Source of the DNA: a virus
Virus record (IMG/VR): IMGVR_UViG_3300023179_000264
Location: 1-37,482 of that record
Length of the DNA: 37,482 nt
Reading direction: 5' to 3' (one strand)
Part shown: piece by piece, positions 5,466 through 37,482 of the stretch
Layout: each line of letters begins with the position of its first letter
Numbering within the stretch: position 1 is the stretch's first letter
The notes under the pieces: generated by a model
The model's database searches: none
What the model was told of the DNA's origin: nothing
Seen by the model: the letters and a program-made list of their open reading frames with translations, nothing else
Program-made: the position numbers and the translations under genes

Positions 5466-7279
5466 ACCGCACCTGTTCTTGAAAAGGTTTGCTGGAGAAG
5501 AATATTAAGAATTGTTGTCGGGCTAACTGTTAACGTATATGTATTTGTTGCTGTTGAGTAATCTGTGTTTTGCAACAACAAAACTCCATTATTGTAAAGA
5601 TTGAATGCGTTTATATCGTATTGGAATGCGTATGTGGACTGCCCAATTACTGTGTTAGCAATTATGTTTACTGGATATCCGTTGGGAACCGATAAATTAT
5701 TTGCAGACCATTGAATAATAGTTAGCTTACCTGTCGTGACATTTGGAAAATCGGTAATTGTTTGATCGACAATATTATAATCTTGTTCATTAACAACAGT
5801 CCCATTTAAAAACAACAATTCGTAACCACTGACCAATGTAAATCCAGAGGCTGTATATTGGCTTGCGCTTGTTAAATTCGCCACGTTTCTTGTAAATGAA
5901 GCATATACGCCCGTAGAAGCGTTTGTGCTTTTGAATGAAACGATGCTAATAATATCGCCCACCGTCGCTCCTACAGACAGCGTAACCGTTCCCGTAGATC
6001 CTCCCGTGTCTGAATATTCCGAGGTGTCTAGCAATAGACCATTTTGAAACACAAGACACTGCCCAGAAATATATCCAGCAGCTCTCGTAACAGAAAAGAC
6101 CGTCTGTCCTGATGTGGCCGTAAATGATTGCTTAGTAAAGTAAAAATTATCAGGAACTTCAAATCCTACAACTCTGCCGTAAATATCTACCGTCAATGTA
6201 GCAACACTGCTTGTGATTGTGCTTGCCCCACCGAAATCTAAAAACTGTTTTAGCGAACCAATGATTCGTCCGTCTGATGTATTGGTTACAGTAATTTCTC
6301 CAGCATTAGCGCCAACCGTAGACGTACCGGTTTTTAATACTTGTCCTGTGGCTTTGTCTAAATCAATAATGTTCGTGCCATCTACAAGCGCAGACCAAAC
6401 CGTAGGATCAAAAATAGCTGTTTGTGTCGGAACAAATGCCCCTGATCCAGCAGCATAATTAGCAAGTCCTGTATCAAAACTAAATTTCCTTCCAGTTCGA
6501 TTGGAATAGCACACATAATATGATGATCCAAATGCAGGATCTGCTAGATACCAAGTGTAATCCGCTGCTATTAAACTGGCAGTTGCTGTATCTTGATTCC
6601 TAAGGCCAAAGTACAATCTGTTTCTTGGGTTTAATGAAAAGTTGCTTCCAGTGTTGCTATCTCCATAAGCCACAGCGACATATCTTTCTGTATATTGAAA
6701 TGTTGTCGGCCTCCAGCGGAATATAGAGCTTGCAGCGCTAAACTTTGATGCGCCCAAGCTATTTACCATCCTCGTAAAGAAATACCAATTGCCTGCCGGT
6801 ATATTGGTCAATGAGATTGCTGGCAGCGCTGTGCTTGGCAACCAAGGAGTTCCATTGCTTTGGATTTCACTGGTTGCCGCAAAAATCAATTGTTCGGTTG
6901 TAGGATTTGCAAATGCCGAATACCACACTTCAGCATATTGCGTTATCCCCGACGATGCTGTTGTTACCTGTACCACAAACAATGGATTAGAAATGGTTGG
7001 ATACTCTGCGGAAATCACTGGGGCATAAAGCGTCCCAAAAAACAACGGGTCACCTATTCCTGTATTTGGCGCAGGCGAAAACTGCGTAATTGCAACATCA
7101 TCATAAATTGTTGGGTTAAACTCTTGCAACAGTAATTTAACGCTGATTGATCCATCATCACCAAAACTTTCTGTGACTTTTGAGCATCTAAACAATTTAG
7201 CTACCCAGCCATAATTGACGTTGGTGATCGTCACAATATCACCGGCTTCTAACTGCAACCAGAAAAGCCGATTGAGCAT
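5462..7279 (-). CDS. C-terminal part of a split J-like tail hub/tip protein
   Basis: The open frame gives 605 residues from an ATG at 7279. Its first residues continue the J-like fold exactly where the upstream frame ends: FWLQLEAGDIVTIT is the usual segment after the conserved RxDL motif of J-type hub proteins. The rest contains fibronectin-like and beta-rich repeats with a Gly/Ser/Thr bias. The ribosome site is poor, with GAGG about 13 bases before the ATG. A -1 shift at the T4 run 7263-7266 would fuse both frames into about 1045 residues, close to the usual size of lambda J-like proteins. This may therefore be one gene broken by an indel or joined by recoding, not two genes. Confidence 0.75.
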   Translation of the reverse strand: MLNRLFWLQLEAGDIVTITNVNYGWVAKLFRCSKVTESFGDDGSISVKLLLQEFNPTIYDDVAITQFSPAPNTGIGDPLFFGTLYAPVISAEYPTISNPLFVVQVTTASSGITQYAEVWYSAFANPTTEQLIFAATSEIQSNGTPWLPSTALPAISLTNIPAGNWYFFTRMVNSLGASKFSAASSIFRWRPTTFQYTERYVAVAYGDSNTGSNFSLNPRNRLYFGLRNQDTATASLIAADYTWYLADPAFGSSYYVCYSNRTGRKFSFDTGLANYAAGSGAFVPTQTAIFDPTVWSALVDGTNIIDLDKATGQVLKTGTSTVGANAGEITVTNTSDGRIIGSLKQFLDFGGASTITSSVATLTVDIYGRVVGFEVPDNFYFTKQSFTATSGQTVFSVTRAAGYISGQCLVFQNGLLLDTSEYSDTGGSTGTVTLSVGATVGDIISIVSFKSTNASTGVYASFTRNVANLTSASQYTASGFTLVSGYELLFLNGTVVNEQDYNIVDQTITDFPNVTTGKLTIIQWSANNLSVPNGYPVNIIANTVIGQSTYAFQYDINAFNLYNNGVLLLQNTDYSTATNTYTLTVSPTTILNILLQQTFSRTGAV

Positions 7280-14836: not shown

Positions 14837-15178
14837 CTATACCGCCGCGCTCGGTTCGTTGCGATAACATCTTAATGTTACCCATTGCCGATCATCGTGC
14901 TCAAAAATCTCGGCTATTCTCCATGACTTTTGACGAAACGTCACGCTGTATGCTTCTTGAGCGTCCGAAATTGTCCGAATATTTGGCGTGTAATTACAAA
15001 CAAACTCTATCATATTGTCGTATTGCCTAAATCGTTCCAATGTCCTAATGTTATTGTGAACTGATTTGGTTTTTACTCGCGTTTTAAACCAAAGCGTCTC
15101 TACCGTCGTTTGCTCACCTAAATTTGTGACTGTAAACGACAGGTTATTGATGCTTATCTCATCGACGCGTAAAACCAT
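14837..15178 (-). CDS. Head-tail joining/head-closure protein
   Basis: With the ATG at 15178 (TGATG junction with the connector gene) the product has 113 residues; a GTG one codon earlier is the alternative. It is a small beta-barrel-like protein: VDEISINNLSFTVTNLGEQT near the start and SWRIAEIFEHDDRQWVTLRC near the end. The segment EHDDRQWVTLRC resembles the conserved end of SPP1 gp16/HK97 gp7-type joining proteins. It lies between the gp6-like connector and the tail terminator, as expected for head closure. Confidence 0.78.
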   Translation of the reverse strand: MVLRVDEISINNLSFTVTNLGEQTTVETLWFKTRVKTKSVHNNIRTLERFRQYDNMIEFVCNYTPNIRTISDAQEAYSVTFRQKSWRIAEIFEHDDRQWVTLRCYRNEPSAAV

Positions 15179-15822
15179 CACATCACCAAAGGCTTGTAAG
15201 GTCTAAGCAACTGGTCAATCGCCCACGGAATCTGCTTTAGATTTTCTGCCGACGTTGCAGAGCGGTTGTTGTACAGGTGAGTGAGCAGCATGAGACCGGC
15301 TTGCTTGACTACAGGATACTGACCAATGACCGAGCCTTGTAACGTGTACTGACAAAGCATAGGAGCGGTCATGTAAGTGTTGATGTTATTGGGAACCTCA
15401 AACAAAACCACCTTATTACCCGTCGGGTCATAATAATAATTTGTGCTTGTAATTGTCGTAAGCACAGGTGGATTTACATCTGTGTAGTATTTCACCCAAT
15501 TGATTGTGACACCATTCTGTGAGACTTCAGGAAGATCAAGACTTACAGGAGCTGCCATAAGCCCCGAAATCATGTAAGAGGCTTGATAGGTCACATTGAA
15601 CACCGGAACGCCCAGATAGTCTTCTATCGCCATTCTAGCGGCAAGTTCTAATTGCGCCAGATAATCGTCTTGGCTTTCATCCTGAAATAAATTCAACTGG
15701 TTGGTGATTTCGTCGTAAGTAAGCCATTGCGTAACCGGATCTCGATTACTTTGGATTACTTTTGAGTAGTTGAACGGGTTTCTAGAACCCGCTCCGAAGT
15801 TACCTTGCAGTTGAGATGGCAT
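15178..15822 (-). CDS. Head-tail connector (HK97 gp6-like)
   Basis: This 214-residue protein has the typical gp6-type helical start WLTYDEITNQLNLFQDES and ARMAIEDYLG, and a later helical stretch AGLMLLTHLYNNRSATS. These adaptor proteins form the ring beneath the portal. The gene follows the second capsid gene by 1 base and overlaps the head-closure gene. Length and motif order fit the PF05135-like connector family. Confidence 0.85.
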   Translation of the reverse strand: MPSQLQGNFGAGSRNPFNYSKVIQSNRDPVTQWLTYDEITNQLNLFQDESQDDYLAQLELAARMAIEDYLGVPVFNVTYQASYMISGLMAAPVSLDLPEVSQNGVTINWVKYYTDVNPPVLTTITSTNYYYDPTGNKVVLFEVPNNINTYMTAPMLCQYTLQGSVIGQYPVVKQAGLMLLTHLYNNRSATSAENLKQIPWAIDQLLRPYKPLVM

Positions 15823-15823
15823 C

Positions 15824-16852
15824 TTAGGTTCCGATCAATCGAACGCCAGCAGTCACATCACGAACGGTTGAAACCATCCGCTTTTCAGCATAAATCGTAA
15901 TCGTCCCAGGCTGGGTCTGCTCCATTCTCTGAAGCGTCATCTCTGAATGATCCACAATCCACATAAATCGCGGCCAGTTTGCAAGATAGATTGGAATTGC
16001 GCCGATTGCGGGAGCATCCAAATAAGGATTAGCAATCACCGGCCAGCCCATAATGTTTACGCCTGGGCCTTCATCCTTTTCGCCCGTCTCCACAAGCGCA
16101 TACGAATTGCCGCCATGCGTATATTCTCGCAATGTCGCAATCGCCGTGGGGTGCATCATCCAAGCAGTTCCTGGCATTCTCCAAAATTGCCCAGGAAGAG
16201 CGCTGGCAACATCTACAAGGCTTTCCCATTCAATACCACCCGAATGCGAATAACCGACTGTATTAAGAGTGTGTATACCGGCTGTAATGGCCGTTCCTGA
16301 CGTTCCATAAGCTGCAGATGATCCTGCCGTTCCAAGATACATCTTCAAGCCTCTAAGGCCGTTTGTCGCGCCTGTAGAGGTCGTTGTTGAGCCTGCCTGA
16401 TCGTTGTTGATTGCCATGGATGCCGCTTCAATCTGGCTAAATTCCATTGCAAGATCTTCGACAAGAGCCGCATCTAATCCGTTGATGTCATCCATTGCCG
16501 CTGCGCGAATTGGCATCTGAGCGGAAATAACACGCATCGGAAGCTGCCAGATACTAGTGGCGATGTTGGGCGAGCCTGAATTGGCGTTGACCGCGTAGCC
16601 CCACGGGTTGGTGGAGTTAGCAGCGTTACCCGTTTTGACAACAAACTGAATATCTGAGTCTGCCGTCATTGTCTGATTGGCAAACACTCGAAATGGGTTC
16701 CAGTAACGAAGGGATGCAAATACATCCTCGTTATATACGCGACCACCAACCCCGCTGCCTGAGCCGGTTAGGGCTGAGGCTTCCGCGAGGTTGACAGTGC
16801 TTTTGCCCTGTTGAAGAGCCTCTTTCAAGCCTTCCAAAATCACTTGTTTCAT
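15824..16852 (-). CDS. Second HK97-fold capsid protein, lacking the N-terminal delta region
   Basis: From the ATG at 16852, which has a GGAGAG ribosome site 5 bases before it, the product has 342 residues. It is a clear paralogue of the capsid protein upstream. Shared blocks include EASALTGSG (24-32 here, 107-115 there), FVVKTGNA, ATSIWQ, QMPIRAAAMDDINGLD versus QFPIRTAALDDIDGLE, and a shared C-terminal TVRDVTAGVR/SVRDPNAGVR. It lacks the ~105-residue N-terminal region that the other protein has, so it resembles a mature-length core. It could be a minor vertex protein, a second shell component or a decoration. It is an intact gene with no stops. Confidence 0.88.
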   Translation of the reverse strand: MKQVILEGLKEALQQGKSTVNLAEASALTGSGSGVGGRVYNEDVFASLRYWNPFRVFANQTMTADSDIQFVVKTGNAANSTNPWGYAVNANSGSPNIATSIWQLPMRVISAQMPIRAAAMDDINGLDAALVEDLAMEFSQIEAASMAINNDQAGSTTTSTGATNGLRGLKMYLGTAGSSAAYGTSGTAITAGIHTLNTVGYSHSGGIEWESLVDVASALPGQFWRMPGTAWMMHPTAIATLREYTHGGNSYALVETGEKDEGPGVNIMGWPVIANPYLDAPAIGAIPIYLANWPRFMWIVDHSEMTLQRMEQTQPGTITIYAEKRMVSTVRDVTAGVRLIGT

Positions 16853-16855
16853 AAT

Positions 16856-16886
16856 CTCTCCAAAGGGGAGAGGGCTTGCGCCCTCT
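16856..16886 (-). promoter_or_regulatory. Two alternative hairpins between the capsid genes, one covering the ribosome site
   Basis: Hairpin A (minus-strand RNA) is GAGGGC-GCAA-GCCCTC, a 6-bp stem extended by one A-U pair (positions 16869-16886), with a tetraloop. Hairpin B pairs CTCTCC (from 16867-16872) with GGAGAG (from 16856-16861), and GGAGAG is the ribosome site of the second capsid gene. Positions 16869-16872 belong to both stems, so A and B are mutually exclusive. No U-run follows either, so an intrinsic terminator is unlikely. This could tune the ratio of the two capsid proteins or protect the first message end; both are inferences. Confidence 0.55.
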
Positions 16887-16890
16887 TTTA

Positions 16891-18240
16891 TCAAGCAGCC
16901 GTACCAGTCGAACGATAACGAACGCCAGCGTTAGGATCGCGCACCGAAGTAGCCGCGCGAGTCTCGCCGTAGAACGTAATCGAACCTGGGAGGGTCTGAT
17001 CGTAGCGACGGAGAACCATCGAAAGACGCATCACCATTGTGTGGAACTGCTGCCAATCCGCAAAGTACATCGGATAGTAGGAGGTCGTTCCTGCTGCTCC
17101 GGCGGTGGGTTGGCTGGGGTTGTCAACATACTTATTAACAACGACCTTAAACCCAAGCAATTCACCTACGATGCCATCAGTCCGAGAAAGACCGTCGATG
17201 TAGATCGGACGCAGCTGCGAATCGACCAAACCACGGATTCCTTGAAGAAGAATCGGGTTAATCATAAACGCTGCTGTCGGTGTCCAATACTGCTGTGGCA
17301 GGCTGTAAATGAAGTTCACAACGTCTTTGTAAACGATGTTGTTAGCCGCGACCGTGTTGGCGTTTGTGGTCAACTGATCGTAAGTAGCAAGGTTATGCAA
17401 ACCGTTACTGGTTGCAGTTCCCGAGGTTCCGAACGAAGCCGTCGAGCATGAGCCGCCCGTGTAGGAAGCATTTGCGCCAGCGTACTGATCCAAACCGCGC
17501 AAACCGTCAGCGCCGCCCGTCGTTACCGAGGTTCCGGTTCCCGACTGATCGTTATTCTGGATCGCCGAGGTTGCCATTGCCTGCTGGAACTCCATCAACA
17601 TATCGTCAACGACATTGGGCTCCAAGCCGTCAATGTCATCAAGCGCCGCCGTTCTGATTGGGAACTGAGCATTCAAGTCCTTAAGAATGACTTGCCAGAT
17701 GCTCGTGGCTTCAGTCGTGGATGCGCCGTTGTTTTGAACGGTGTAGCCCCACTGTGCGCCTGCATTACCTGTCTTGACGCGGAACTGATAAGCCGACCCA
17801 TCAGTTGCGACGATGCGCGACAAACCTAGCAACGGGTTTCCAAGACGCTTTGCAGCGAATACAGGATCGTAAGCGGTGCGGCCACCAACGTCGTAACCTG
17901 AGCCTGTAAGAGCCGAGGCTTCGTTGATGTAGGCTTCACACTGATCGACAGATTCAAAAATCTTGATCTCGCGCTCAATGTTGTTCCCAGCCTTTACATA
18001 TTCCTTAAGCACATCACGGAAGCGACGATTTGCTTCGCCACGGACAGTCTTGTGAATAGGACGAATGATAGAAGGAGCGGCAACTTTTGCCTCTAAAGCG
18101 GCAATCTTTGCTTCGGTTTCGGTTTTAACAGCCTCGACAGCCTCAGCAACTTTTGCCTCGACAGCCTGTGCGGTTTCTGCCAGCTTGGCAGCGCTAGATG
18201 CTTCGATTGCATCCAGTTTTTCAATTACCTTTTCCAACAT
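16891..18240 (-). CDS. Major capsid protein (HK97 fold) with N-terminal delta/scaffold region
   Basis: This 449-residue protein has an N-terminal coiled-coil-rich delta region (about 1-55, Ala/Glu/Lys-rich) and a linker to about 105. The HK97-fold core then starts at NEASALTGSG and includes FRVKTGNAG, SIWQVILKDLNAQFPIRTAA and a C-terminal SVRDPNAGVRY. The delta region is normally removed by the prohead protease encoded immediately upstream. The gap to the protease is 11 bases. The gene is followed by a shorter capsid paralogue. Capsid identity is well supported by synteny and by the fold-typical blocks. Confidence 0.92.
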   Translation of the reverse strand: MLEKVIEKLDAIEASSAAKLAETAQAVEAKVAEAVEAVKTETEAKIAALEAKVAAPSIIRPIHKTVRGEANRRFRDVLKEYVKAGNNIEREIKIFESVDQCEAYINEASALTGSGYDVGGRTAYDPVFAAKRLGNPLLGLSRIVATDGSAYQFRVKTGNAGAQWGYTVQNNGASTTEATSIWQVILKDLNAQFPIRTAALDDIDGLEPNVVDDMLMEFQQAMATSAIQNNDQSGTGTSVTTGGADGLRGLDQYAGANASYTGGSCSTASFGTSGTATSNGLHNLATYDQLTTNANTVAANNIVYKDVVNFIYSLPQQYWTPTAAFMINPILLQGIRGLVDSQLRPIYIDGLSRTDGIVGELLGFKVVVNKYVDNPSQPTAGAAGTTSYYPMYFADWQQFHTMVMRLSMVLRRYDQTLPGSITFYGETRAATSVRDPNAGVRYRSTGTAA

Positions 18241-18251
18241 TTTGAAATCTC

Positions 18252-19013
18252 CTAACGGGTTGAAATAGCTTTCAGCAACTCGCGGTATTCGAGCGCTTTC
18301 AGCAACTCCGCCGCATCAGACTCACTCTGAGTGGCAGTTTGTTGATCGCCCACAGCATCACGCTGTTCCAAAATGGCTTTCAACACACCGGACGCGGCGG
18401 TCGCATCCCGGCGAGATAGCCCTGCATCACGCAAAGCCTTCTCAATCGTTCTCGGATTGGGTTTCGATCCCATCCAGTATTCAAGTCTACTGATCTCAGC
18501 CTTCGGATTATTCGGCTGCATCACGATGGAAACCTCGGCTAGACCACCTTTGACGATCTGGAAATAACCATCGTCCGATTCTGTGGGCTCGCCATTTTCG
18601 TCGACCATCTGATATTCATCAGCATAAGCACCAACAGATACACCGCCGACCATCCGTGGGCTTTCGCGCATGATTGTATATAAATCAGATCCTGCTGTGG
18701 TATTTAGGAAAATCTTTCCAGTTCCGGTCATACCTTCTTCGTTAATATCAAACTTCGACCATTCACCGACAGGCATCATATCGCTTGAATGTTGAAAGTA
18801 CATCGGCAGCGGTCTGCCTGACTCTTGCCACATTTCGTGCCAGTTTTGAAAAGCCTCTGGCTTATAAAAGAACCGTCGACCGTCTGCGCCTTCTCTTGCG
18901 CCCCAGGTTGTAAGCGTGGCTTCTATTTCGCCCGTGGGCTCGCCCATTGCCTCGTCGGCTTTTCTGCCTAACTCAACTTTGGCTTCGTAGAAAAAAGTGA
19001 CATTTTTAGCCAT
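18252..19013 (-). CDS. HK97-family prohead maturation protease
   Basis: In this 253-residue protein the likely catalytic His is H75 in FQHSSDMMPVGEW (73-85). The Ser nucleophile is S126 in GGVSVGAY, and E160 in GGLAEVSIVMQPNNP completes the triad region. The C-terminal ~70 residues are helical and Ala/Asp/Glu-rich (DAVGDQQTATQSESDAAELL) and may interact with the scaffold. These proteases (U35 type) cut the capsid delta domain during head maturation. The ATG at 19013 has a GGGAG ribosome site; the gene overlaps a tiny upstream frame by 8 bases. Confidence 0.92.
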   Translation of the reverse strand: MAKNVTFFYEAKVELGRKADEAMGEPTGEIEATLTTWGAREGADGRRFFYKPEAFQNWHEMWQESGRPLPMYFQHSSDMMPVGEWSKFDINEEGMTGTGKIFLNTTAGSDLYTIMRESPRMVGGVSVGAYADEYQMVDENGEPTESDDGYFQIVKGGLAEVSIVMQPNNPKAEISRLEYWMGSKPNPRTIEKALRDAGLSRRDATAASGVLKAILEQRDAVGDQQTATQSESDAAELLKALEYRELLKAISTR

Positions 19014-19113
19014 TTATCGGCTCCCTTTCCTTAATCTTTCCATCTACCAACTTAGGTTTTGGCTTTCTCTTGTCTGCCGCGGCTTTGAGCTTCTCTAATA
19101 AATCCTTAAGCAT
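19006..19113 (-). CDS. Possible 35-residue basic protein between portal and protease
   Basis: An ATG at 19113 lies inside the last codons of the portal gene. It opens a 35-residue Lys-rich frame (MLKDLLEKLKAAADKRK then PKPKLVDGKIKEREPING) that ends 8 bases inside the protease start. The longer frame back to 19308 overlaps the portal and is probably a shadow. The short frame neatly fills the 92-base gap, which supports it, but the ribosome site is weak (GGA). It could be a small scaffold-like peptide or not translated at all. Confidence 0.4.
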   Translation of the reverse strand: MLKDLLEKLKAAADKRKPKPKLVDGKIKEREPING

Positions 19114-20500
19114 TTCCGGCTCTGCCTGTCTTACTGACCACCTTAAGGTTTCCACCACCTCCAGTGTCTTGCGGAGAACTGCCGGGAATAACGCTATCGC
19201 CACCAGCGGCAAGCAGCAGATCATCAGCACCATCGAGAGAATTAAGTCCCAGATATTCACGCGCTTCATTCTGCGTAAGAATCCCATTCTTAACTCCTGC
19301 AACCACATAATTCATTTGGTCTAATGGCGCACCTTTTAGGAAATCTTGCGTCTGAAACTGAATATGTAGATTTGGATAACCTTTAAGCAAAGCTAATTTT
19401 AACCTTTGCTCAATATTGGTAATAAACGGCATCATCGTCGATTTATAAAACTCGTCCAGCATCGTTTGTGTGTTGTTGTACTTAGATTCTCCGACTCCGA
19501 TCATCGCAGGAGGAACACCAAACAATCCACAAATCCTTGTCATGGTTTGCTTCTTAAGTTCTCTAGCGTCCACATCTTGAAGGGTTAAAGGCTTGATTGC
19601 TTCGTAAGTCATGCCCTGATCTAACAGCATGGATTGCCCTGGTTTGCTTTGATCCGAGGGCTGGCTGTTGAGCATGTTTGTCCACGCTTCTTTAAGACGG
19701 GATGCAATCTCTTTAAACTTTGAATCTGGAATAACTTGCTCGGTGCGGAACAAACCAGAGGGTTTTGCGCCGTTTAGCATAATGAAATTGGAGTAAAGGT
19801 CAATGTCCTGATCTAGCGAAACTAATTCCACAGCTTGCAAGCGGTTAAACGAACTTGAGCCTTGCCATGGCTCAGACTTTGTGTGCATCACTTGGAAATA
19901 CTTAAGCGGTTCGTCTTTGTTAAATCCGTAAGATGAACTGGTAAGCGTGTAAAACGGATAGCGCGTCTCCGAGATCCTCGGCACGATTAGCGTCGAATCT
20001 AAGACGTATATTTCTAAAGGTATCTGTGTTGGATCTTCTGCATTCTTGCGCCAAAGCAAAACAAATGTTTCGCCCGCAAGCTCATGCCACATTGTGAACT
20101 GATACCAAAACTCATATTGGCTTTGGAAATTATTAGGATTTGCAAGAAGATTAAGAATGCTAGATGCGCGGCTTTTTTCGCGCTCAGGCACACTAGGATC
20201 GGTCTGTGTGTCTACAAACGTGCCGTCTGGTTGCTTAGACATAATCTTGATCGGAAGCTGCGCTAAAGACCTTGCTTTTGCTCCCACGCAAGCCATAACC
20301 GTCGAGTTTCTCGCAAGTGTCGTTATATCAACACTTCTGCCAGCCTCGTTTACTGCTGAAGTTGTGACATATAAAAGCTGATTAGAACCGTAGCCCTGCC
20401 CCTTGCCGCGGAGCATGACATTGTTTCCGAGAACAGTATTCCCGAATAAAGAGTTACTTTCTGCCTTTGTTTTACGCTTAAATACGTCGAATAAGCCCAT
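19106..20500 (-). CDS. Portal protein (HK97 type)
   Basis: Starting from the ATG at 20500, which has a GAGG ribosome site 8 bases before it, the product has 464 residues. A TTG at 20512 is possible but overlaps the terminase stop. It starts MGLFDVFKRKTK, has the phage portal core around TLARNSTVMACVGAKARSLA and PNNFQSQYEFWYQ, and the helical region ending GLNSLDGADDLLLAAGG. The HK97-type portal forms the dodecameric vertex through which DNA enters. Size and order directly after the large terminase fit the family. It belongs to the late packaging-head block. Confidence 0.92.
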   Translation of the reverse strand: MGLFDVFKRKTKAESNSLFGNTVLGNNVMLRGKGQGYGSNQLLYVTTSAVNEAGRSVDITTLARNSTVMACVGAKARSLAQLPIKIMSKQPDGTFVDTQTDPSVPEREKSRASSILNLLANPNNFQSQYEFWYQFTMWHELAGETFVLLWRKNAEDPTQIPLEIYVLDSTLIVPRISETRYPFYTLTSSSYGFNKDEPLKYFQVMHTKSEPWQGSSSFNRLQAVELVSLDQDIDLYSNFIMLNGAKPSGLFRTEQVIPDSKFKEIASRLKEAWTNMLNSQPSDQSKPGQSMLLDQGMTYEAIKPLTLQDVDARELKKQTMTRICGLFGVPPAMIGVGESKYNNTQTMLDEFYKSTMMPFITNIEQRLKLALLKGYPNLHIQFQTQDFLKGAPLDQMNYVVAGVKNGILTQNEAREYLGLNSLDGADDLLLAAGGDSVIPGSSPQDTGGGGNLKVVSKTGRAGNA

Positions 20501-20508
20501 TTTTATCC

Positions 20509-22167
20509 TCAAAAGACTCTGAATCCGTACGATTCAGACGGCATCGGATTGTCCAGACTACAGTGCATCGCAATAATCAGCGCAATAATGCCGTCAACCT
20601 TAGCGTGACGATCCACACCGGCTTTCTTGACCTTAATGTTGCCCTGAACGTCTGTAAACACTTCGCAATTGCCCAATTGATGTCCTAAGAATGGGTTGCC
20701 ATCGTGTTTAATCTTGTGGCCTAGTATAAGTCGCTCGACATGCTTAGACGGGTTAGAAAGCACCGCCATTCCTTGACCGACTTTCTTTACCGGCATTCCG
20801 ACTTCGTAAAGTCTAGCTACTAAAGCCGCTGCATTGTATGCGTCATAGCCAACTTCTTTTATGTCGTATTTCTGGCTTTGCCCAATAATATACGCTGAAA
20901 TTTCTCTATCGTCCATCACATTGCCTTCAGTGATGTGCAATATCCCCGAATTGATCGCCTGCCTGAAAATATCCTGATAATGAGTCGGCAATAACTCAAA
21001 GCCATCTTCGGGAAGAAAGAACTTCCATTCGGCTTCGTAATCGTCCTCGGCAAATCTTTTTAGCGTGCAAACTGCGTTTAAATCTCGAGTTGCCGCTAGG
21101 TCAAAACCAATAAATACCGCTTCGGGTTCTCTTTCTGTCAGTCCTACGGATTCATCCCAGTGTGTACGGTCTACCCAGGCTGTCTCGGCTGAAACATAAA
21201 CATTAAGCGTTTTGCAGAGAAACTCGTTAAGCGCAGCGGGTTTAATCTTTGCTTCTTCGCATCGCGCAACAATCGCATCGTGACTAACAGAAATATTGTG
21301 CATGGGATTAGCTTTTGCCCACGTCTTTTCGTCGCGCCAATCATCGCCAGCATCCAGAGAATAAAGAAGTCCAAACCACCGCGGGTTGTCAGGTACATCC
21401 TGATGAAGAATGTGTTCCATCACCTGGAAGTCCTCGAAAAACTTTGTGTCTCTCGTGAAACTCGCAGTTGTGATGTATAGACGCAACGGATTCAGTCGAG
21501 ATACCATCCCTGAATGCAATACCTCAATCGCATTCCTGTCTACAATCTGGCTCGCTTCGTCAATAATCGTGCAAGAAGGGTTGAGCCCGTCTCCAGTCTT
21601 TTTAGTGTCTCTGGAGAGAGCTTTCATCATACTTTGGCTGTCGCCAGACTTCGTGATTGTGAATTTGCCGGTAACAAAAAAGTTACCAAGCTCTTTCGGC
21701 ATTGTCTCGACGAAGCCCTTGGCAGTCGTAAAAACAATTGAAGCCTGATCGCGGTTTGTAGCCAGCGTGTAGACTTCTGCTCCCGCCTCCCCAAACCCTA
21801 GCTCATAAAGTGCAATTAAGGCCGTTAAAGTCGATTTACCAGCCTTTCTAGGGATATAAACGATGACATCCTGCACCATTCGCTTTTGACGGTCTTTTTT
21901 GCTTCTGAATCCGTATATGGCGCAAGCAATTAAAATTTGAAATGGCTCAAGCGTGACAGAATGCCCTGCCCACTGGCCTTTGACATGCTTACATAAAGCG
22001 GTAAATTGTAAGAAATGGTTGACGGGATTTGGATCAAATACCCATTCCCATTCTTTATTTTCTAGATGATTTAAGAAACGCTGGCAGGCAAGCCGTACAT
22101 TTCGGCAAGCGTCTATTTCACCCTTTGCTACGCTGACCGCGTACTCAATTCCATCTTCTAGTTTCAT
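20509..22167 (-). CDS. Terminase large subunit, HK97-type
   Basis: In this 552-residue protein the ATPase part has Walker A PRKAGKST (106-113), Walker B CTIIDEAS (199-206) and the segment LNPLRLYITTAS (225-236). The nuclease part has FDLAATRDL (355-363), VGYDAYN (439-445) and an acidic residue in DRHAKVDGII (519-528). These are the expected RNase-H-fold positions. Terminases of this type (PF03354-like) drive DNA into the head. They often belong to phages that package from cohesive ends, though this cannot be proved from the protein alone. Its start overlaps the small subunit stop by 4 bases. Confidence 0.95.
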   Translation of the reverse strand: MKLEDGIEYAVSVAKGEIDACRNVRLACQRFLNHLENKEWEWVFDPNPVNHFLQFTALCKHVKGQWAGHSVTLEPFQILIACAIYGFRSKKDRQKRMVQDVIVYIPRKAGKSTLTALIALYELGFGEAGAEVYTLATNRDQASIVFTTAKGFVETMPKELGNFFVTGKFTITKSGDSQSMMKALSRDTKKTGDGLNPSCTIIDEASQIVDRNAIEVLHSGMVSRLNPLRLYITTASFTRDTKFFEDFQVMEHILHQDVPDNPRWFGLLYSLDAGDDWRDEKTWAKANPMHNISVSHDAIVARCEEAKIKPAALNEFLCKTLNVYVSAETAWVDRTHWDESVGLTEREPEAVFIGFDLAATRDLNAVCTLKRFAEDDYEAEWKFFLPEDGFELLPTHYQDIFRQAINSGILHITEGNVMDDREISAYIIGQSQKYDIKEVGYDAYNAAALVARLYEVGMPVKKVGQGMAVLSNPSKHVERLILGHKIKHDGNPFLGHQLGNCEVFTDVQGNIKVKKAGVDRHAKVDGIIALIIAMHCSLDNPMPSESYGFRVF

Positions 22168-22637
22168 GTTCCGAACTTGGGCCCTTTCAGGAAGTCGTTT
22201 ATTTTCGTGTTGTCATCAAGTTTATTAGCCGCCAGCCTAGATTTAGGTGTTAGCCCCAACTCAGACATAAGTTTAATCGCATTTTCCATCGCCTTATTTG
22301 CAAGGCTGATGTAAGGATTAGGCGCAAATGTTTTACCAGCGTTCGTTTCGACAATAAGCGGGTGAGTATCTATCGCAGCTCTTGCGTCAATGTAAATCTG
22401 AAGCTGATCGGCAAGCATCATCAGCGTATGTCGGTCTTGCTCTGAGCCGATTCCATACACGCTGAACAAATACTCAGCCGTCTCTTTGACAAACTTTTCC
22501 CGCGTAAACGATTTGGGATTGTTCGCCCATTCAGCAAAAGGAATCCTGCGCTTTACATCTTCTGGCAGGAATACACCTTCCTTTTTTCCTTTGGTTCCGT
22601 GGATTCGGTGGATCTCAACTGGAATTCTTGCGGTCAT
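22164..22637 (-). CDS. Terminase small subunit (P27-like)
   Basis: From the ATG at 22637, which has a GGAG ribosome site 9 bases before it, the product has 157 residues. A TTG at 22688 would place the start inside a palindrome and is less likely. The C-terminal half contains the helical P27-type segment NPYISLANKAMENAIKLMSE followed by LGLTPKSRL. Small terminases recognise the packaging start and regulate the large subunit. It overlaps the large subunit by 4 bases and follows a palindrome-rich noncoding stretch that could be its DNA target. Confidence 0.88.
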   Translation of the reverse strand: MTARIPVEIHRIHGTKGKKEGVFLPEDVKRRIPFAEWANNPKSFTREKFVKETAEYLFSVYGIGSEQDRHTLMMLADQLQIYIDARAAIDTHPLIVETNAGKTFAPNPYISLANKAMENAIKLMSELGLTPKSRLAANKLDDNTKINDFLKGPKFGT

Positions 22638-22796
22638 GACGGTTTTCTCCTTTGCGTCTAATGTGCGCTTTTTTGCGTAGCTACGCAAGGGGAATTCCCT
22701 GTTTTGGTTAACCCCCCCTAAACACCGACTTTGCAGAAAGTTGGGCGCGCGCTTGCGCTTCCGTCGCGTCGATTTTTTTTAACTTATTCTTAAAGA
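22638..22796 (-). other. Noncoding, palindrome-rich spacer between HNH nuclease and TerS; candidate cos/packaging site
   Basis: This 159-base spacer is one of the longest noncoding stretches in the late region. It holds three perfect palindromes close together: TTGCGTAGCTACGCAA (22673-22688), GGGAATTCCC (22690-22699) and GGTTAACC (22706-22713). A seven-C run, a GCGCGCGC (22745-22752) and an eight-T run follow. It lies between an HNH nuclease and the small terminase, where cos-phages of this class often carry their packaging site. I see no convincing promoter here. The cos role is inference. Confidence 0.5.
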
Positions 22797-33796: not shown

Positions 33797-35557
33797 TTAA
33801 ACAAAGAATAACAAGAAACTTTGGGACGGAGTTGAACCATCTGTTGTCGTAAAAGAAACAATCGTGCAGGATTCTATAGTCACTGTATCAAACACACAAA
33901 TTGTAATAATTTGGTCGCTAGCTATGCAAGACTCTGAAACGCTTGCAAGAATAAACTTTTCTTCGGACTGCTGATCCTGAGCAATTGCGCCTTCTGCAAC
34001 AGAAGAAAAGAAAGTTCTTGATCCCTGCGTAATGACGGAGGCAATTGCGGAATCACTTACATCAACTTGCAAATTAGCATTGCTATTACCAACATCGCTA
34101 ATAAATGCAGATTCAGATATGACTTCAAGCAGTGAATGCAGCGTTTCTATTGAATCACTTGCTATGGATGATTCCAAAACAAACACAACAGCAATTTGAT
34201 TGCCATTTGAAGAAACATTACCTGTTGCATTTTCTGAAATTTCTGCCTGAAATATTACGTTTGATTCAGACGCGTCCAAACCTGTTGCATTTTCTGAAAC
34301 TGCTGAACCAAACGTTAGATCGCCCTGCGTTTGATCTGAACCCGTAGCCGCTTCAGAAACAATTGTTGCTTGACTGGCATTCGCCAAAATATTGTCTGAA
34401 GCTATTGCTGTTTCTGCTTGTTCCGCGTTGCTAAAAGTTAATGCTTGAAAAGCATCTGTAGCAGTAGCGGTTTCAGTTAAAAGCGGATATAAATCCGTCT
34501 CACCAAATATTACAGACCCAGATCCTGAAATGATCGTGTAGGTGTTAAATCCACCAGATGTTACTAGCGAATAGGTAACACCAGAAAATGACGCTGTATA
34601 AGTATCTCTGATGCGTAATACAACGACACCAGAGCCACCCGTTCTTCCATTTACCCCTACTCCGCTTTCACCACCAGCGCCGCCGCCCGTATTTGGTTCG
34701 CCATCTTCGCCTGTTTGTGATGTACCCTGACCATCACCTCCACCGCCAACGCCTCCGGCACCAGCTACCCCATTGTTTGCACCGCCACCACCACCGCCAT
34801 AATAATTACCGGTAATAGCAGACAAAACGCCCGGACCACCTGCGCCCCCTGTAGTAAAAGGCGTATTTGCAGAACCACCAGCGCCTCCCGCGCCGCCACC
34901 ACCGCCACCTCTATACGTGCTTGGTGAGCTACCTCCCCCGGAACCACCTACGTAGCCCTGTGTTGCAGCACCGCCTGCGCCCACATAAACGCAGCCACCA
35001 CCGCCACTAGCGCCGGACCCGCCACTCTGGAAGTTAGGAGCCGACGCTCCAAGCCCACCACCTCGACCACCACCAAAAGCAATGATTGATGCAAACTGAG
35101 ATTGCCCACCAGCCGTAGCCGCCGTTGATGGGCTGTAGATCATGCCCGACCCACCCACACCGACAGTAACCGTGTAGGAAGTATTTAATTGATATGTTGA
35201 AACAAATGTGGCCTCAAGTACCCCGCCAGCACCGCCGCCTCCACCACCTCCACCACCAGAGCCACCGCTTCCTGATCCACCGCCGCCACCAACAACAAGA
35301 TAGCTAAGAACAAACCCTACTTCTCCTACCGTAGCATCCGAACCGGATGCGCTTTCTGACACCGAAACGTCAATGACGTTATTGCCTTGGATGGCATCAC
35401 TTGCAGTGGATGTTTCTGATACGGCAGCTTGTGCCGAAAGTATGGACGCTAGGCTATCTGAACCCGTTGCGGATTCTTGGACCTCCGCATTGATCGGCCC
35501 TGTAACACCACTGATCGCCGAAAATGGCGCAGTTGAGAATGGATCAAAGCCGAACAC
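33797..35557 (-). CDS. Large tail fibre protein with SExAxxSD repeats and inserted glycine-rich domain
   Basis: This 586-residue protein uses a GTG start with AGGA 8 bases before it. About 13 copies of a motif like VSESATGSD occur (near residues 26-75, then about 365-570), about 20 residues apart. Between them a glycine-rich domain runs from SYLVVGGGGGSG (about 85) to GGSGVVVLRIRDTY (about 315). Thus a paralogue of the glycine-rich domains at the window ends is inserted in a repeat array. Likely a tail fibre or tip adhesin. The repeats are probably beta-solenoid or Ig-like strands, which is inference. Confidence 0.85.
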   Translation of the reverse strand: MFGFDPFSTAPFSAISGVTGPINAEVQESATGSDSLASILSAQAAVSETSTASDAIQGNNVIDVSVSESASGSDATVGEVGFVLSYLVVGGGGGSGSGGSGGGGGGGGGAGGVLEATFVSTYQLNTSYTVTVGVGGSGMIYSPSTAATAGGQSQFASIIAFGGGRGGGLGASAPNFQSGGSGASGGGGCVYVGAGGAATQGYVGGSGGGSSPSTYRGGGGGGAGGAGGSANTPFTTGGAGGPGVLSAITGNYYGGGGGGANNGVAGAGGVGGGGDGQGTSQTGEDGEPNTGGGAGGESGVGVNGRTGGSGVVVLRIRDTYTASFSGVTYSLVTSGGFNTYTIISGSGSVIFGETDLYPLLTETATATDAFQALTFSNAEQAETAIASDNILANASQATIVSEAATGSDQTQGDLTFGSAVSENATGLDASESNVIFQAEISENATGNVSSNGNQIAVVFVLESSIASDSIETLHSLLEVISESAFISDVGNSNANLQVDVSDSAIASVITQGSRTFFSSVAEGAIAQDQQSEEKFILASVSESCIASDQIITICVFDTVTIESCTIVSFTTTDGSTPSQSFLLFFV

Positions 35558-35561
35558 ATTG

Positions 35562-35927
35562 TTATCCTAGAATCTCAATCCAGTTAGTTGTCGCCTCATC
35601 CCACGAATACATCTTGCCGTCTGTTGGCATTGGCGTGGGTGCTTCCCATTGTGCCGTGTTTTCATTTAACAGCCAACTAGCAAAGGGTTTAGGCGGGATG
35701 AAGGCGTCAAGTTGCGTATCGTATGTGTAACCAATCCCTGCGTAGTTTTTTCTGATGTTCCCGTTATAGCTCGTCTGCTTCCACGTTCCACCGAGGATCT
35801 TCTCTAAGTGTGCAGCGCCGATGTGTTCTTTCTCGACACCGAAAGCATCTGCCATATCTTTGTTGTCAACAACGACGACCTGAGTAACAACATTGTTCTC
35901 GTCGATTTTCGCGTAATGGCCCATCAT
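35562..35927 (-). CDS. Conserved virion-associated protein (GTWKQTSYNGNIRKNYAGIGY type)
   Basis: This 121-residue protein starts MMGHYAKIDENNVVTQVVVV and carries KILGGTWKQTSYNGNIRKNY followed by AGIGYTYD. It then has the tail FIPPKPFASWLLNENTAQWE and GKMYSWDEATTNWIEIL. This arrangement is known in structural proteins of marine and freshwater phages. It may contact the fibre. The start overlaps the upstream stop by 4 bases. Confidence 0.8.
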   Translation of the reverse strand: MMGHYAKIDENNVVTQVVVVDNKDMADAFGVEKEHIGAAHLEKILGGTWKQTSYNGNIRKNYAGIGYTYDTQLDAFIPPKPFASWLLNENTAQWEAPTPMPTDGKMYSWDEATTNWIEILG

Positions 35928-36526
35928 GCCTCCAATTTCAATCCGGTTAAATCCATTTCTTCCCCGACAACTCCGACAGGGAAGGTATTAAAACTAAGTG
36001 AGATTCTTGTGTCCTCGCCTTTGACTTCAGGAACCATGTGCGTCAGCGACGAAGGAAAGAGAATCAGCCTGCCTGCATAAGCCTCAAACCACCAGCTCTC
36101 ACTGTTATACGGGTTCCACTGGTCGGGCGGGAATTTGATCTGCTGCCAGCCATCCTTGTAGAAGTAAATCCGATCATCAGGGTTGGTCTGCACATAAAAC
36201 ACACCTGAGATATAACTATTAGGATGAGCGTGTTTGTGGTGGTACTGGCCCTGTTCTGAGTAGTTGCACCAGCTTTGTGTCACACGTAGTGTTACATTGT
36301 GCTTAGGGTTGACTGTGGACTTGAAGTATTCCGAGACAGCATCTTCAATGAATGAGCGCAGGGACGTTAGAGCTGGATCACGCAAGACAAAGTTATTCGT
36401 GCTTGTTGTGTTGCCCATATTAGGTCTTGTCTGTAACTCACGGATGAAGAACAACTCCTCATCTGACAAGGGGCGACCTAGCTCAGCAAAGCCTACAGGG
36501 ATGGGGAATAAGTTATGCAACTGCAC
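35924..36526 (-). CDS. 2OG-Fe(II) oxygenase
   Basis: With the GTG at 36526 (GAGG about 9 bases before it) the product has 200 residues; a TTG at 36532 is the alternative. Iron ligands are likely H99 and H101 in HHKHAHPNSYISGVFYV, and H163 in FPSSLTHMVPEV, with R174 in DTRISLSFN for 2-oxoglutarate. This matches the 2OG-FeII_Oxy_5-type family of phage proteins. Such enzymes hydroxylate proteins or nucleic acids; the substrate is unknown. It is embedded among tail genes, so the target may be a virion protein. It overlaps the next gene by 4 bases. Confidence 0.85.
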   Translation of the reverse strand: MQLHNLFPIPVGFAELGRPLSDEELFFIRELQTRPNMGNTTSTNNFVLRDPALTSLRSFIEDAVSEYFKSTVNPKHNVTLRVTQSWCNYSEQGQYHHKHAHPNSYISGVFYVQTNPDDRIYFYKDGWQQIKFPPDQWNPYNSESWWFEAYAGRLILFPSSLTHMVPEVKGEDTRISLSFNTFPVGVVGEEMDLTGLKLEA

Positions 36527-36767
36527 GTTCAAATTCCTCTTTGGCTATGCCCATCTCTTTGAGTTGCTCGTCGGTGTAAATCGTAGGGATGCTGTCCTCA
36601 AACTCTCTGATCTTGTCGATGACCCAGTAGACCTCTTCAATACTCGGACAAGGCCGTGGATCATCCCAGCGTGTAAAGACGTTGTTAGAGATTTCCCACT
36701 TCGCCCCAGGACGTAATAGGTGCATTGCTGTGTCTATTCCTAGGAAGCGATATGTTTTAGTAGTCAT
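36513..36767 (-). CDS. Conserved small tail-region protein (DDPRPCPSxEEV type)
   Basis: This 84-residue protein begins MTTKTYRFLGIDTAMHLLRP and has WDDPRPCPSIEEVYWVIDKI and REFEDSIPTIYTDEQLKEMG. The same motif occurs in small proteins that sit next to 2OG oxygenases or fibre genes in aquatic phages. No enzymatic motif is seen. The start is 1 base after the stop of the glycine-rich gene; it overlaps the 2OG oxygenase start by about 14 bases. Confidence 0.72.
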   Translation of the reverse strand: MTTKTYRFLGIDTAMHLLRPGAKWEISNNVFTRWDDPRPCPSIEEVYWVIDKIREFEDSIPTIYTDEQLKEMGIAKEEFERAVA

Positions 36768-36768
36768 G

Positions 36769-37482
36769 TTATTGGTTGATTTTGATGATTACGATACCGG
36801 AGCCGCCTGCCGCTCCATCTCGTGTTGCGTTATTTCCAGAACTGCCGCCGCCGCCGCCACCTGTGTTAGCAGTTCCTGCTGTAGCAGGCGTTAGAGGTGA
36901 TTGATCGTTTCCACCTGCGCCGCCACCGCCCAAACCACCATCAGTTACTCCTGCCCCATTCCTACCACCACCACCGCCGCCTGCATAAGTTACAGATGAT
37001 CCAGAAATAGAAGATGCCGTTCCATCTCCTCCAAAACCTGCGCCATCAGTGTTTCCAGCTTCTCCTGCTCCACCGCCACCACCACCAGCAAATGGAGCGG
37101 AACTTGCTCCAACGCCACCATTACTTCCTTGACTGGGTGATGTATTTGGCGTATTACCTGTGCCTCCAGCGGCTCCACCACCACTTATTCCGGTTCCTCC
37201 ACCACCAGAACCACCATTAGCACCTGCTGTTCCGGGATTTCCACCACCGCCACCGCCACCGCCAGTTGATGTAATCGTGCTGAATACTGAATCTACCCCG
37301 CTACTACCCGTTGAAGATGTTCCTCCTGCACCACCTCCTCCAACAGTAACAGTGTAATCAGTGCCTGCCGTAACGGATAAGGCGGTTCCTGTTCTAAACC
37401 CACCTGCGCCGCCACCGCCGCTATTTGTTGCTGCATTTATACCTCTACCCCCACCCCCACCCCCACCAACCACAAGGTCGAC
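36769..37482 (-). CDS. Glycine-rich tail fibre/adhesin protein, 5' end cut by the window edge
   Basis: The frame runs into the right edge with no start within the window; reading from 37482 gives VDLVVGGGGGGGRGINA and about 237 residues to the stop at 36769. The C-terminus GGSGIVIIKINQ is the complete end that the left-end gene lacks. Repeats and codons are paralogous to the left-end gene (LSVTAGTDYTVTVGGGGAGG here, LSVSGGTDYTITVGGGGAGS there). A GTG at 37473 is only an internal codon. It is therefore a tandem paralogue that the contig break has separated from its N-terminus. Confidence 0.82.
   Translation of the reverse strand, partial: VDLVVGGGGGGGRGINAATNSGGGGAGGFRTGTALSVTAGTDYTVTVGGGGAGGTSSTGSSGVDSVFSTITSTGGGGGGGGNPGTAGANGGSGGGGTGISGGGAAGGTGNTPNTSPSQGSNGGVGASSAPFAGGGGGGAGEAGNTDGAGFGGDGTASSISGSSVTYAGGGGGGRNGAGVTDGGLGGGGAGGNDQSPLTPATAGTANTGGGGGGSSGNNATRDGAAGGSGIVIIKINQ

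Follow-up and report, generated by a model that had tools for sequence, protein, structure and literature searches.

The window, meaning the whole stretch of DNA analyzed here, is a 37,482-base virus record from a tailed phage with a genome of approximately 38 kb. On its minus strand the genes follow the order TerS-TerL-portal-protease-MCP1-MCP2-connector, which is that of a standard head operon. The terminase small subunit (22164..22688; PHROG 83, E 2.2e-16) and large subunit (20509..22167; PF03354, PF20441, PHROG 9) are followed by the portal protein (19106..20512; PF04860, E 4.6e-57) and, upstream of MCP1, by a prohead protease of the Peptidase_S78 type (18252..19013; PF04586, E 6e-10; PHROG head maturation protease). 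Next come the major capsid protein, MCP1 (16891..18240; 449 aa, HK97 fold), and a second capsid-fold protein, MCP2 (15824..16852; 342 aa). The space between the two holds a stem-loop, AGAGGGC-GCAA-GCCCTCT (16869..16886), placed between the MCP1 stop codon and the ribosome-binding site of MCP2, for which the probable Shine-Dalgarno sequence, GGAGAG, was read from the sequence at 16856..16861. Only 1 base separates the MCP2 stop from the gene for the head-tail adaptor (connector; Ad1/gp6-like; 15178..15822; PHROG 40, E 1.3e-9; PF05135, E 3.6e-4), and these two genes are therefore probably co-expressed. Elsewhere on the minus strand of the window, a 2OG-Fe(II) oxygenase gene (35924-36532; PF13759, PHROG 81) is flanked by two Gly_rich_2-domain genes (33797-35557 and 36769-37473).

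The original prediction described the capsid genes as two intact paralogs of the HK97 fold, and our analyses bear this out. Both minus-strand genes run uninterrupted from an ATG to a stop codon, and the proteins share 38% identity over 359 aligned positions by BLASTP (E 5e-68), with a profile-profile comparison extending over 313 columns (E 8.9e-85). All of the sequence blocks that had been listed as shared were found in both. Each protein matched Phage_capsid (PF05065) far above the curated cut-off (E 1.8e-19 for MCP1, 5.3e-19 for MCP2), and each matched a PHROG major head protein, in the case of MCP1 PHROG 10 (E 9.8e-26). By sequence, the nearest solved relative of MCP1 is the capsid protein of the Rhodobacter capsulatus gene transfer agent (RcGTA; E 2.6e-6), while MCP2 matched no solved structure at E 0.01. 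An AF2 model of MCP2 of moderate confidence (pLDDT 68, pTM 0.70) gave the RcGTA capsid (6tb9) and the HK97 prohead as its best Foldseek matches in the PDB, with E values of 1e-15 to 1e-12 and TM scores by query of about 0.55-0.62. The MCP2 core retains E-loop-like, spine-helix, P-domain and A-domain motifs.

The two proteins differ most at their N-termini. MCP2 had been described as about 105 residues shorter at this end; it is indeed shortened there, and is 107 aa shorter overall, but the N-terminal share is only about 83 residues, as the motif EASALTGSG begins at residue 107 in MCP1 and at residue 24 in MCP2. The remaining difference consists of three internal loops and a C-terminal tail present in MCP1 and absent from MCP2, and the MCP1-only signature loops are fixed between the two clades. 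In all 27 diverse members of the group that were aligned, MCP1 begins with a charged, alanine-rich, delta-like segment of about 100 residues (approximately residues 1-105 in the window's MCP1), and in 27 of 27 this segment is missing from MCP2, as had been proposed for the window. Residues 2-53 of MCP1 form a long helix in an AF2 model, a low-confidence one (pLDDT 45) from which the helicity is taken, and the segment is consistent with a delta domain. Together with the prohead protease gene upstream, it would provide a putative HK97-type scaffold in MCP1; MCP2, lacking the segment in 27 members, is therefore not a self-scaffolding MCP of the HK97 type. MCP2 does not simply start where a mature capsid protein would. 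Its core is preceded by a conserved leader of its own, about 23 residues long with the pattern E-[KR]-I-L-x-G-I-K-x-A-L-x-x-G, which meets the shared core at EAS-x-[LI]-TGSG. Judging from these sequences it is plausible that MCP2 has no need of protease maturation, as originally suggested; alternatively, its conserved N-terminus could itself be cleaved.

We surveyed IMG/VR for conserved pairs in relatives, starting from MCP1 or MCP2 proteins taken from several branches of the family, and found the pair wherever it would be visible. MCP2 was kept in every relative with sufficient flanking sequence, across at least 175 distinct junction sequences, and in the final survey the pair was present at 69 of 73 loci. 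The apparent exceptions were mostly contigs ending less than 200 bases from the gene. In another (L344), MCP1 is followed by an HNH gene and then the beginning of MCP2, and in L172, which is also contig L343, the MCP2 frame is interrupted (5821-6752), through either a real mutation or an assembly error; this is the only broken copy among the relatives. Contig collections are biased toward metagenomes, and the genome collection contributed four contigs only, all metagenome bins, each of which had the pair. The same pair occurs in a cultured phage of Methylophilaceae, P19250A (KX815270), at 55-57% identity and in identical gene order, where it is annotated as "gene transfer agent capsid protein" (P19250A_0005) and "hypothetical protein" (P19250A_0006). 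Methylophilales phage Venkman has been placed in the same genus-level cluster as P19250A, with similar synteny (PMC8163748). We considered Venkman (MT375522, L202) as a second cultured member and rejected it on account of its different head module: its record has one capsid gene and a separate scaffolding gene, and its capsid, portal and tail tube genes all differ from those of P19250A. No single-capsid outgroup was close enough for comparison, identities beyond the group being 22-34%, mostly over partial alignments. Our literature searches, made in an incomplete library of open papers, turned up no description of two such genes in any small tailed phage; our own survey for duplicated capsid genes covered part of the phage groups.

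In a maximum-likelihood tree built from 28 pairs, every MCP1 fell on one side and every MCP2 on the other, with a support of 100/100. These two fully supported clades indicate a single old duplication that preceded the diversification of the group, and the tree showed no sign of later conversion between the genes. MCP2 is under purifying selection: within the window's clade the median pairwise dN/dS was 0.046 for MCP2 and 0.061 for MCP1, ratios that are approximate because dS is near 0.9. When clades are compared, MCP2 has changed faster than MCP1 (mean identity 62% vs 74%). The distance matrices of the two proteins are correlated (r 0.84), as shared ancestry alone could bring about.

The junction between the two genes has a conserved architecture. 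A G+C-rich stem-loop lies directly 3' of the MCP1 stop codon in almost every relative, with stem sequences that vary widely from clade to clade. It usually comes with a T-tract like that of an intrinsic terminator, as is the case in most of the divergent clades, and in 76 of 91 distinct gaps the natural sequence folded better than shuffled ones, with z below -2. Under a strict definition of a terminator (a stem of at least 7, at least 5 G-C pairs and a T-tract), with thresholds that were picked after the hairpins had been seen, 28 of the 56 representative loci had a match in the gap, and the sense strand elsewhere gave a single match in 525 kb. A looser pattern captured 42 of the 56 gaps but also 40 sites elsewhere, and thus lost its specificity. 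The stem-loop of the window has an MFE of -13.5 kcal/mol (z -2.25). Its clade retains the hairpin and lacks the T-tract; in this clade the element may therefore terminate transcription weakly, act in transcript processing or stability, or control translation. There is no such hairpin at the boundary between MCP2 and the connector gene. With a hairpin after MCP1 and none before the connector, the dose of MCP2 would be expected to equal that of the connector and tail genes and to lie below that of MCP1. We also noted that the GGAGAG of MCP2 is complementary to a CTCTCC that overlaps the hairpin's 3' arm (window 16850-16893, minus strand). An alternative structure could hide the Shine-Dalgarno sequence and act as a translational switch in this clade, a speculative idea based on base complementarity. 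The complementarity is kept in all available close relatives, in which neither side varies, so that the pairing draws no support from covariation. The intergenic hairpin had no match in Rfam, and a promoter scan gave counts at or below shuffle expectation.

Several relatives have genes inserted at this junction. Some of these resemble homing endonuclease genes: the same HNH gene lies precisely between MCP1 and MCP2 in two contigs (L225:2077-2443 and L344:4363-4689), and a GIY-YIG-like reading frame, identified by eye, is found there in a third (L305:4345-4978). MCP2 has been retained despite these insertions. In two further contigs (L231:4227-4573 and L234:4635-4986) a gene of 101 aa with no Pfam match lies between the hairpin and MCP2, and the hairpin after MCP1 is kept.

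The closest likeness to this arrangement is in phage T4, where adjacent paralogous HK97-fold capsid genes encode the hexon protein gp23 and the vertex protein gp24. Reading the T4 stretch directly, we found gene 23, a hairpin (AGGGAACC-TTCG-GGTTCCCT-TTTTT), segD and gene 24; a T-tract hairpin thus follows the major gene, and segD, a GIY-YIG homing endonuclease gene, sits between the pair much as the HNH and GIY-YIG-like genes do in L225, L344 and L305. Like a T4-type vertex protein, MCP2 is an MCP paralog encoded alongside the major gene. The T4 pair stems from a separate duplication, however, as the closest paralog of MCP2 is MCP1, and MCP2 is therefore at most an analogue of gp24 and not a member of its family; no T4-like record was among the matches listed when the phage collection was searched with the MCP1 and MCP2 proteins. 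T4, a myovirus of 169 kb, uses a separate scaffold, whereas the window represents a genome of about 38 kb with a long N-terminal segment on MCP1 only. T4 gp24 carries a propeptide that is cleaved (PMC5694885), and MCP2 has no comparable segment. Pentamers of gp24 occupy eleven of the twelve T4 vertices (PMC3012670). A terminator by itself is a common device, since in T7 the terminator Tphi comes straight after capsid gene 10, and it is the combination with a paralog that is T4-like. As T7 has its terminator without a paralog, all that can be read from the hairpin is that MCP2, like the connector and tail genes, is on the side of lower expression. HK97 gp5 and the RcGTA capsid (Rcc01687) resemble the window's system in their fold, in a head operon with an S78 protease and in the delta-type N-terminus shared with MCP1; they differ from the window, with its two capsid genes, in that a single gene provides both hexons and pentons in HK97 and in RcGTA.

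The original prediction held that a functional second shell subunit was plausible. As regards a functional gene, this is supported by the universal pair and the purifying selection; as regards the shell, we infer from the sequences that MCP2 would be present in the virion, at a lower dose than MCP1 and perhaps in a penton position. That MCP2 is a shell subunit of some kind is very probable. The more specific reading, that it is a minor, delta-less subunit co-assembling with MCP1, most likely as the penton, we consider an evenly balanced call. In this model, MCP2 would have its origin in the early tandem duplication of an MCP gene. The delta-like scaffold segment is on MCP1, which would drive prohead assembly and make the hexamers. 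MCP2 probably joins the MCP1-built shell, rather than nucleating its own, because its E-loop, P-domain and A-domain are kept while the delta segment is absent, and it would occupy the vertices as pentamers, in the way of gp24 in T4. A genome of about 38 kb suggests a T=7 head, which would contain about 55 copies of MCP2 to 360 of MCP1; in most relatives the post-MCP1 terminator would account for at least part of this imbalance. We favor the penton because the loop differences between the two paralogs are fixed and because MCP2 has no self-scaffolding, is expected at a lower dose and has a precedent in T4. Against it counts the fact that phages of about 40 kb usually use one and the same protein for hexons and pentons (PMC13185644).

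Alternatively, MCP2 may take the place of MCP1 at numerous sites or at random, in hexamers as well, and tune the size, stability or surface of the shell. All lattice-contact motifs are kept in MCP2, and there is a precedent for a mixed lattice in the Family 2B encapsulin of Streptomyces lydicus, whose HK97-fold shell has two components and is tiled irregularly, and in which one of Sl-Enc1 and Sl-Enc2 makes no shells alone and joins mixed shells (PMC12407261). The terminator-like hairpin after MCP1 argues against similar doses of the two proteins and favors a minor subunit, hence a vertex over a near-equal mixture; the fixed, clade-specific loop differences likewise suggest a defined position, and we regard the mixed lattice as unlikely. 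The encapsulin resembles our pair in having two adjacent HK97-fold shell paralogs, but it is a bacterial T=1 nanocompartment with an E-loop insertion domain in both components and no portal, protease or DNA packaging. We rejected the possibility that MCP1 and MCP2 themselves constitute a Family 2B encapsulin, as they have no inserted domain and lie next to terminase, portal and protease genes.

The tight spacing of MCP2 against the connector gene, on the same expression side, would also fit a protein found only at the portal vertex or in a head-completion or collar structure. We consider such a special site rather improbable, since a full HK97-fold core with its E-loop region is what would be expected of a shell position, and we know of no HK97-fold protein that is confined to a collar. 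A non-structural role is conceivable too, in that a protein without a delta segment could cap, poison or time MCP1 assembly, acting as an assembly factor or controlling MCP1 polymerization before it leaves the prohead. This is very unlikely, as MCP2 is strongly conserved over its entire capsid fold, not on one surface, and early capsid assembly factors usually lie upstream of the MCP in the operon. If MCP2 were a redundant or decaying copy that does nothing by itself, this could account for the interrupted frame in one contig (L172/L343) and for the faster divergence of MCP2 between clades. The low dN/dS, the intact frame in essentially all relatives and the survival of MCP2 beside inserted endonuclease-like genes leave this reading barely credible, and we rejected degeneration as a general explanation; the suspicion that relatives might have one capsid gene and a decaying second is likewise contradicted by the universal pair, the one broken contig excepted.

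Taken as a whole, the analysis suggests that the shell of a 38-kb virus may be built from two kinds of subunit, as in T4. We propose tentatively, at a little under an even chance, that a widespread freshwater, siphovirus-like group with genomes of about 38 kb independently evolved a delta-less penton dedicated to that position, with one self-scaffolding subunit holding the assembly information of both proteins and a terminator after its gene setting the ratio of hexon to penton. The two-gene shell of the T4 style would then have originated a second time, in minimal form, within a size class thought to make do with one coat gene. According to a 2026 review, separate penton genes are rare, the standard case being T4, for which its large genome is the explanation given (PMC13185644); a group with 38-kb genomes that conserves a second gene for a capsid protein would contradict this argument from one-gene economy. 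The stem-loop after the MCP1 stop codon is a new observation of this work. Because the delta segment is absent from MCP2 in every member, the pair also offers a natural test of whether each subunit of an HK97-type prohead must carry its own scaffold or whether delta-less ones may fit in, and with P19250A cultured on its host IMCC19250 this question is directly testable.
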